From Bacillota bacterium (GTDB lineage Bacteria > Bacillota > DSM-12270 > Thermacetogeniales > Thermacetogeniaceae), in the NCBI GenBank assembly GCA_013177945.1, contig JABLXW010000011.1:62001-126000 (forward strand): DNA of 64,000 nt, given 5' to 3'. Shown here one piece after another: positions 46,160-57,830 of this stretch. Position numbers and translations under genes: made by a program. Below the pieces are notes generated by a model. It had not been told where the DNA came from, did not search any database, and worked only from the letters and a program-made list of their open reading frames with translations. Position 1 is the first letter of the stretch. Each line of letters opens with the position of its first letter.

Positions 46160-46256
46160 GGGAGCGGATTGTGCCTGGTGGTGCGCCTGGACTTCAAATC
46201 CAGCGGGAGGCATGACGAGTGTCTCCGGTGGGTTCGATTCCCACACGCTCCCGCCA
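46160..46256 (+). tRNA. selC: tRNA-Sec (anticodon UCA)
   Basis: Folds as selenocysteine tRNA: anticodon arm CTGGA-CTTCAAA-TCCAG with TCA anticodon, a long variable arm (GGGAGGCATGACGAGTGTCTCC), T arm GTGGG-TTCGATT-CCCAC, and encoded CCA (46254-46256). The 97-base length and long extra arm are right for Sec. The acceptor has seven Watson-Crick pairs (GGGAGCG/CGCTCCC), the eighth position being G46167 opposite A46245, instead of the usual eight pairs. It is the substrate of SelA and SelB encoded at 37.3-40.6 kb. Confidence 0.95.
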
Positions 46257-56547: not shown

Positions 56548-56629
56548 TGATTTTTTTGGTCTGGAAGCAGGAGATCGACCCTGCAGGGCGAATAGATTTC
56601 ATACGGCAAATTATATAGCAAAAAAAACA

Positions 56630-57010
56630 GGGAACAGGTGCCCTTTGCACGGGCTGAAAAGGGAAGTCCGGACCCCTGCACTCAATGAGAATGCAGCTCT
56701 TTTAATATGCTTGCAGCCCAACGCACCTGGAAGTCGATGCAGGTCCTGGTGCGCTGCGTTGAGTGCGGGGGGAAAGGCGCGGTCCCGCCACTGTGAGGGG
56801 GAGCCTCTCTACAAAAGCCACTGCCTCACACTCAATGCAGCTTGGGCAGAAGGACGGATTCTTGCCGCAGCCCAAATTCGTGCTGCAGCAAAACTGTTTT
56901 ATGTCTCGAGCACCGCTGAGTGCGGGGTGGGAAGGGGTAGAGAGGGCGAGGAACCCGAGCCAGGAGACCTGCCTGTTTCCTCACACCGAAACCCTACGCG
57001 CGATAGGGAG
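56630..57010 (+). promoter_or_regulatory. Cobalamin riboswitch with two large stem insertions
   Basis: Core parts: GGTGCCC (56637), AAAAGGGAAGTCCGG (56657-56671), GCGCGGTCCCGCCACTGT (56777-56794), GCCACTG (56817), GGGAAGG (56929), and the B12 box GCCAGGAGACCTGCCTG (56959-56975), followed by hairpin CCCTA-N7-TAGGG (56992-57008). All match the cobalamin aptamer. Two regions are far longer than usual: 56672-56776 and 56824-56928 (about 100 bases each, normally 10-30), and both carry CACTCAATG ... TGAGTGCGGGG. It lies before cbiM and should reduce the operon when cobalamin is plentiful. Confidence 0.92.
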
Positions 57011-57128
57011 GTGGGATGGATGGCGCTGTCGATCTGCCTCAGTCCGTAGGGCTGGGGCTTTCAATTTCTGCGCTGAATCAGATGCCGGGTTGAACAAGTG
57101 CTGGATCACTACAAAGGAGGCTTTAAAA

Positions 57129-57830
57129 ATGCACATTGCCGAAGGAATGCTGCCCCTCGGCTGGGCGGCTGCCTATTCAGGGGTTGCCGTGCCTTTTCTG
57201 GCCAGGGGGATTTGGGATTACGTGCGCCTCGCGGCGCGGGAGCCCTCCGTCAGGCAGATGGTGGGGGCGCTTACGGCAGCGGTTTTTATTATTTCCCTCC
57301 TGCCGGTTCCCGTCCCGATCACCGGCACCTGCTCGCACCCGGGGGGAACCCCCCTTGCCGCGATTCTGGCCGGCCCCTGGCTCGCGACGGTGATGGCCTT
57401 CATCGCCCTGCTTTTTCAGGCGCTTTTTCTTGCCCACGGCGGCCTCACCACCCTGGGGGCGAACACCCTGACGATGGGGCTCTTCGGGGGGCTGGTGGGC
57501 TACCTGGTTTTCCGGGGGCTGCGGCGGCTCGGCCTTAACCTGACCTGGGCAGCCGGCTGCGCGGGTTTCCTGGGGGATTTGAGCATTTACGTGGGAAGCT
57601 CTTTCCAGCTCGCCCTCGCCATTCACGGCACCACACCCTGGCCCCGGGTCTGGGGGGTTATCTTTGCGGCCTACCTTCCCACCCAGCTGCCCCTCGCCCT
57701 GCTGGAGGGGATCTTTACGGGGCTGGTGGTCGGCTACGTGGCGGCCCGCCGGTCGGATCTGCTGGTCCGGCTCGGCTATGCCCTGGCGCCGTTGCAGGCC
57801 CCGGTTCCGGAAGGAGGGAAGCCCTCGTGA
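57129..57830 (+). CDS. cbiM: Cobalt ECF transporter S component CbiM
   Basis: Membrane protein of 233 aa that binds Co(II). The N-terminal MHIAEGMLP, whose amino group and His2 help bind the metal, and LLPVPVPITGTCSHPGGTPLAAIL plus ALFLAHGGLTTLGANTLTMG identify CbiM. ATG 57129 has AAAGGAGG just upstream. First gene of the operon; overlaps cbiN by 4 bases. Confidence 0.96.
   Translation: MHIAEGMLPLGWAAAYSGVAVPFLARGIWDYVRLAAREPSVRQMVGALTAAVFIISLLPVPVPITGTCSHPGGTPLAAILAGPWLATVMAFIALLFQALFLAHGGLTTLGANTLTMGLFGGLVGYLVFRGLRRLGLNLTWAAGCAGFLGDLSIYVGSSFQLALAIHGTTPWPRVWGVIFAAYLPTQLPLALLEGIFTGLVVGYVAARRSDLLVRLGYALAPLQAPVPEGGKPS

Follow-up and report, generated by a model that had tools for sequence, protein, structure and literature searches.

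Two hairpin inserts in a cobalamin riboswitch share a covarying terminal stem with inserts in other functional RNAs of Bacillota

The window, by which we mean the whole 64,000-nucleotide stretch of DNA analysed, holds on its forward strand a cobalamin riboswitch with two enlarged peripheral hairpins, followed by a cobalt-transport and cobalamin gene cluster. The features of the locus are:

56619–56990, + strand: cobalamin riboswitch aptamer (RF00174), host of both insertion elements (Rfam, 77.8 bits against a gathering score of 31.5, E = 1.9e-17)
56674–56770, + strand: insertion element 1, CCCT-GCACTCA ... TGAGTGC-GGGG, replacing the loop of the cccGGUGcaAauCCggg hairpin (sequence, Rfam alignment, fold)
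56674–56684, + strand: 5' arm of the 11-bp terminal stem of element 1, pairing with 56760–56770 with one G-U pair (consensus)
56760–56770, + strand: 3' arm of the terminal stem of element 1 (consensus and fold)
56824–56927, + strand: insertion element 2, CCTC-ACACTCA ... TGAGTGC-GGGG, placed on the hairpin tip between CCACUG and GGGAAGG (sequence, Rfam alignment, fold)
56824–56834, + strand: 5' arm of the terminal stem of element 2, with one A-C mismatch caused by G to A at 56828 (fold)
56917–56927, + strand: 3' arm of the terminal stem of element 2 (fold)
56992–56998, + strand: putative antiterminator arm CCCTACG, complementary to CGTAGGG at 57045–57051, with the same arrangement after the orthologous switch of the congener G001
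57036–57058, + strand: intrinsic-terminator-like hairpin, expression platform (hairpin search and fold)
57129–57830, + strand: cbiM-like gene, first of the cluster (ORF; name suggested by its sequence)

The cbiM-like gene lies downstream of the switch, and homologous regions in Bacillota are at most 61% identical. The window also contains a selenocysteine tRNA gene at 46160–46252 (RF01852, 77 bits).

The covariance-model search recommended by an earlier sequence-only reading returned the switch well above the gathering score, with the B12 box GAGCCAGGAGACCUGCC present and two oversized hairpins in the alignment, where inserts of 107 and 96 positions stand against 11 and 4 in the model hairpins. 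The peripheral GGUGcaAauCC hairpin loop, which is not required for a family call made by score, is absent and element 1 occupies its place; the loop is kept in the other five of the six cobalamin switches that pass the gathering score in the same genome. Located 3' of the aptamer, the terminator-like hairpin and its 7-nt competitor arm form a layout that is repeated behind the G001 switch, about one such terminator-like match being expected by chance in a region of this size. The sequence-only reading had proposed that the core is kept and the switch probably works; the B12 box and the attenuator speak for this, the replacement of one conserved loop by insert 1 against it. On this arrangement, cbiM is probably still controlled by the riboswitch via attenuation.

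Elements 1 and 2 are 97 and 104 nt long, share CACTCAATG close to the start as well as TGAGTGCGGGG at the end, and are each predicted to fold end to end both alone and inside the full riboswitch. Sequence, Rfam alignment and folds thus bear out two long inserts with matching, end-pairing termini. Their interiors, with a best local score of 18 against 21 for the best of 200 shuffles, are unrelated, which confines the likeness to the ends. Consequently, the notion of two copies of one element holds for the ends and fails for the interiors, and duplication of one peripheral domain, also considered earlier, is rejected because the interiors are unrelated and each site has a separate history. Unrelated interiors also lend something to the view that two unrelated riboswitch extensions resemble each other by chance, which the searches below contradict.

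In the window's own genome (G000; 2.71 Mb, 55 contigs), TGAGTGCGGGG occurs 13 times, and 10 of these occurrences form five inverted pairs of 95–118 nt end to end. The pattern CACTCA-N40..100-TGAGTG has 11 matches, compared with none for a control made by reversing the pattern, which keeps both its composition and its inverted-repeat form; the shared ends are therefore not due to chance, and the stem-loop that had been proposed as a search target does have further copies in the genome. Six of the 11 matches lie in five cobalamin switches, the insert-2 site being occupied in four switches besides that of the window, one lies in RNase P RNA and two in c-di-AMP switches, while two (C7:70189 and C8:239509) have no Rfam host. 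The last of these (L079) has an orthologue in G001 (C8:72965, L088) beside a conserved flank, with differing interiors, and their host is perhaps an unknown RNA.

Among 40 relatives scanned, the pattern strongly exceeds its control solely in the window's own genus (G001, 19 versus 2) and in a second genus of the family (G004, 32 versus 1; G011, 11 versus 1; G015, 58 versus 3), and none of 28 loci of named relatives reached through cbiM contains an element. The hosts in G001 are cobalamin and c-di-AMP switches and RNase P RNA, as read from flanks, and an FMN riboswitch confirmed by Rfam. Within the phylum to which the scan was directed, taken to be Firmicutes (Bacillota) because the closest cbiM relatives belong to it, GCACTCA...TGAGTGC has about 146 matches outside the family against 8 for the control, summed over 249 genomes, and the strict pattern CCNGCACTCA...TGAGTGCNGG has 331 matches in 39 of 398 genomes and 20 families, with a summed control of 0. 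Given these counts and the same ends in many RNAs, chance similarity has practically no probability left.

Host identity rests on Rfam. Many copies lie in dispersed repeats that have no Rfam match, so that known RNAs do not account for all hosts. The hosts include 16S and 23S rRNA in G117 and G136, 23S rRNA in family f22, RNase P RNA in f14 and cobalamin riboswitches in f14, f38, f64 and f69; other members lie in RNase P RNA of three further families (G289, G394, G295), in 23S rRNA of G112 and in a c-di-AMP riboswitch of G317. Flanks read against Escherichia coli place the 16S sites in V1 (helix 6) and V9 (tip of helix 44), and a 23S site at helix 25, the classical site of intervening sequences (IVSs). 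The mobile stem-loop suggested by the sequence-only reading is in part supported by this recurrence of the terminal stem in several riboswitches, RNase P RNA and, in other families, rRNA, and by the dispersed multicopy forms.

Several arrangements of these elements are worth recording. In G001 and in genus g3, many copies lie inside a dispersed multi-hairpin repeat closed by TTATCCTTG...CAAGGATAA, which comprises at least three hairpins, each CACTCA-capped and with its own interior family (L086, L087, L148, L151; L078 in G000:C7); an Rfam search with this repeat gave no match, and the repeat is possibly a structured RNA that is mobile. G117 has a large dispersed family (L216-L229) that caps the hairpin ACAGATGNACACAGACCCG / CGGG...TCTGTG, and the outer inverted repeat of L227 is near-perfect. 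Lastly, two strict elements lie about 100 nt apart in one RNase P RNA region of G295 (C3:22475-22775; L250, L276), where the class-A RNase P match (L250 1295-1706) spans the first element wholly and reaches the start of the second.

The stem statistics are based on 139 unique elements, whose 65 interiors belong to separate families. The class consensus is YCCN-GCACTCA-(interior)-TGAGTGC-N'GGR; the terminal stem has 11 bp and an exact border, and the elements are about 55-111 nt long. Conservation of the GCACTCA/TGAGTGC core follows from its use as the search seed, which does not apply to the covariation, the hosts, the border or the YCCN extension. Outside GCACTCA, the next four positions are paired in 58, 58, 59 and 57 of the 65 families, with G-C 32, A-T 12 and C-G 8 at position -1 (58 of 65 paired) and C-G 36 and T-A 18 at position -4 (57 of 65), and the pairing at -1, -2 and -4 was reached by 0 of 5,000 shuffles. 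The bases adjoining the conserved core are thus complementary and those beyond are unpaired: from -5 outward pairing is at chance level, which is why we place the border of the stem there. On the inner side, the first three positions covary as well, none of these features having belonged to the search pattern, and N and Y vary almost solely as compensated pairs across the 65 unrelated interiors. In 58 of 65 MFE folds, nine or more of the 11 stem pairs are present. Compensated changes are also seen directly at orthologous sites, CCCC/GGGG in L005 against TCCG/CGGA in L081 and TCCG/CGGA in L003 against TCCA/TGGA in L082.

These data bear on the possibility that the inserts are DNA-level miniature transposable elements whose ends are terminal inverted repeats bound by a transposase, and which survive mainly in the loops of non-coding RNAs, copies elsewhere having presumably been removed by selection. 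The class does have MITE-type traits, namely terminal inverted repeats and many copies, including dispersed multicopy subfamilies in G001, G004, G015 and G117, and its copies are biased towards non-coding sequence, with 8 of 144 in frames of at least 200 codons compared with 149 of 296 random windows. However, the arms covary at single positions between fixed neighbours, which fits a paired hairpin better than two separately bound ends, and the flanks by the conserved core are complementary and do not look like direct repeats. Most known hosts, moreover, are functional or essential RNAs, and no transposase is linked to the elements, so that we regard a DNA element as unlikely.

The history of individual sites was read from seven sites orthologous between G000 and G001, whose flanks are 81-96% identical. 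The stem persists at these sites, and changes in its variable pairs are compensated. Interiors are clearly conserved at c-di-AMP A, one of the seven, and, separately, at window insert 2; they are weakly alignable at three (cobalamin A, cobalamin B and RNase P), and at insert 1, c-di-AMP B and the unassigned site the alignment between the two genomes does not exceed the best shuffle. An inverted interior at the insert-1 site was considered and rejected, since aligning G000 with G001 in reverse does not beat the best shuffle either. The FMN switch of G000 (L290, G000:C13:183345-183497) reads TCCGGCACTC...GAGTGCTGGA around a very short loop. At this place G001 carries the full insert, and the G000 form looks like a deletion derivative that retained the stem.

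Insert 1 stands in place of a conserved UGCAAAU-type loop. G001 also has the site filled (L090), and so do G004 and G015 of genus g3 (L323, L324), where the ends are slightly degenerate; in the more distant G003, G016 and G018 the matching switch also lacks the UGCAAAU-type loop and has short hairpins instead. At an insert-2-type site, G003 carries an element with the compensated core variant GCGCTCA/TGAGCGC. The relatives examined thus mostly hold related extensions with the same or a variant terminal stem, not the unrelated ones that the sequence-only reading would have taken as a sign of chance. The genus of G003, g2 (L330, L331), has GCGCTCA/TGAGCGC or TTGAGCGC as its terminal stem, a compensated variant that could reflect an altered specificity of the recognising factor.

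A conserved terminal stem around variable interiors is also what retained expansion segments would present, the stem then being a protein-binding site or helix cap and nothing being excised; 5S rRNA expansions in Thermoanaerobacterium and Halococcus are indeed retained (PMC7812874). Against this, the identical stem occurs in rRNA, a ribozyme and three riboswitch classes, which have no obvious shared role for it beyond processing or mobility, and the interiors seem dispensable, as the FMN switch with its deleted interior indicates. Retention without excision therefore appears somewhat unlikely to us.

Taken as a class, the elements have one conserved, covarying terminal stem, occur in many functional RNAs and have interiors that are free to change. 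The interpretation we favour, with rather better than even confidence, is that the window inserts are members of a class of IVS-like hairpin insertions in peripheral hairpins, whose stem is recognised as RNA, probably by a processing endonuclease. RNase III excision is established for rRNA IVSs (PMC4990558). By analogy, the likeliest factor would be an endonuclease that trims or removes the interior, and the host RNA would carry a nick in a hairpin tip that tolerates it and would still function; insertions would be nearly neutral because the host RNA is left functional. Since a substrate defined by duplex length alone needs no fixed sequence, we propose an additional factor that would recognise the stem in RNA sequence-specifically. 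Elements would be copied into hairpin tips and would subsequently turn over. A bolder version, which we put forward tentatively and lean against, has phylum-wide selfish RNA hairpins entering the hairpin tips of any structured RNA, with a shared recognition stem YCCNGCACUCA/UGAGUGCN'GGR and a dedicated nuclease or mobility enzyme; if true, it would be a class of mobile elements defined at the RNA level.

In true splicing, by comparison, the insert would leave and an enzyme such as RtcB would rejoin the host RNA. Intact RtcB is present in nine of 11 element-rich and six of 14 element-poor genomes, but this association is not significant (Fisher p 0.10), G136 has elements in 16S and 23S rRNA without an RtcB match, and RtcB of G227 consists of broken fragments only. 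We accordingly rejected RtcB as a required partner and consider splicing very improbable.

We found no description of the shared terminal stem or of the insertion class in the literature searched, subscription journals being largely outside the search, and as far as this literature goes the class appears previously unnamed. How rRNA intervening sequences arose and spread is a long-standing question, which becomes testable with a diagnostic stem that ties rRNA inserts to those of RNase P RNA and riboswitches: by pattern searches for the class, cleavage-site prediction and purification of factors on the stem. The class also explains oversized riboswitches and carries a warning, since RNAs with such inserts may go unnoticed or be cut short in RNA models, 16S surveys and riboswitch annotations.

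Palindromic dispersed elements such as the Rickettsia RPE, REPIN/BIME and MITEs such as Correia and NEMIS are found mainly in intergenic regions or protein genes. They resemble the class in their size of about 100 nt, inverted ends and multiple copies, whereas the class sits in functional RNAs and its hairpin pairing is conserved. The double-hairpin elements of Allomyces mitochondria are small mobile hairpins in variable loops of rRNA and introns; being mitochondrial they differ from the class, a comparison made by description. Compared with RF00174, the window switch matches in core and B12 box but has two peripheral hairpins enlarged by unrelated interiors and one conserved loop replaced. 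The expansion segments of clostridial 5S rRNA (Stepanov and Fox 2021, PMC7812874) are, like the class, self-contained hairpins in an essential RNA, patchy in Peptococcaceae and relatives and discussed as possibly excised, with inserts of some relatives reported as retained or uncertain; unlike it, they comprise structurally unrelated groups for which no common terminal motif is named, a distinction drawn from their description.

With rRNA IVSs the class shares peripheral hairpins, complementary ends and tolerance of varied interiors, and it has members at the 23S helix-25 site and in 16S helix 6. Known IVSs lie in 23S helix 25/45 of Salmonella and in 16S rRNA of Clostridium paradoxum, and the S23 protein ORF is optional and confined to larger ones. 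The class elements, at 55-111 nt, are too short for this ORF, have one covarying 11-bp terminal stem across 20 families and include RNase P RNA and three riboswitch classes among their hosts. Whereas IVSs are excised from the precursor, usually by RNase III, leaving a fragmented RNA, the class is known here from its sequence. A further IVS is described at 23S helix 45 of Coxiella (PMC4990558). As complementary-ended insertions in peripheral rRNA hairpins, the 16S and 23S elements of G117 and G136 agree with IVSs in position and form, and we term the window members IVS-like because their host is a riboswitch and not rRNA.
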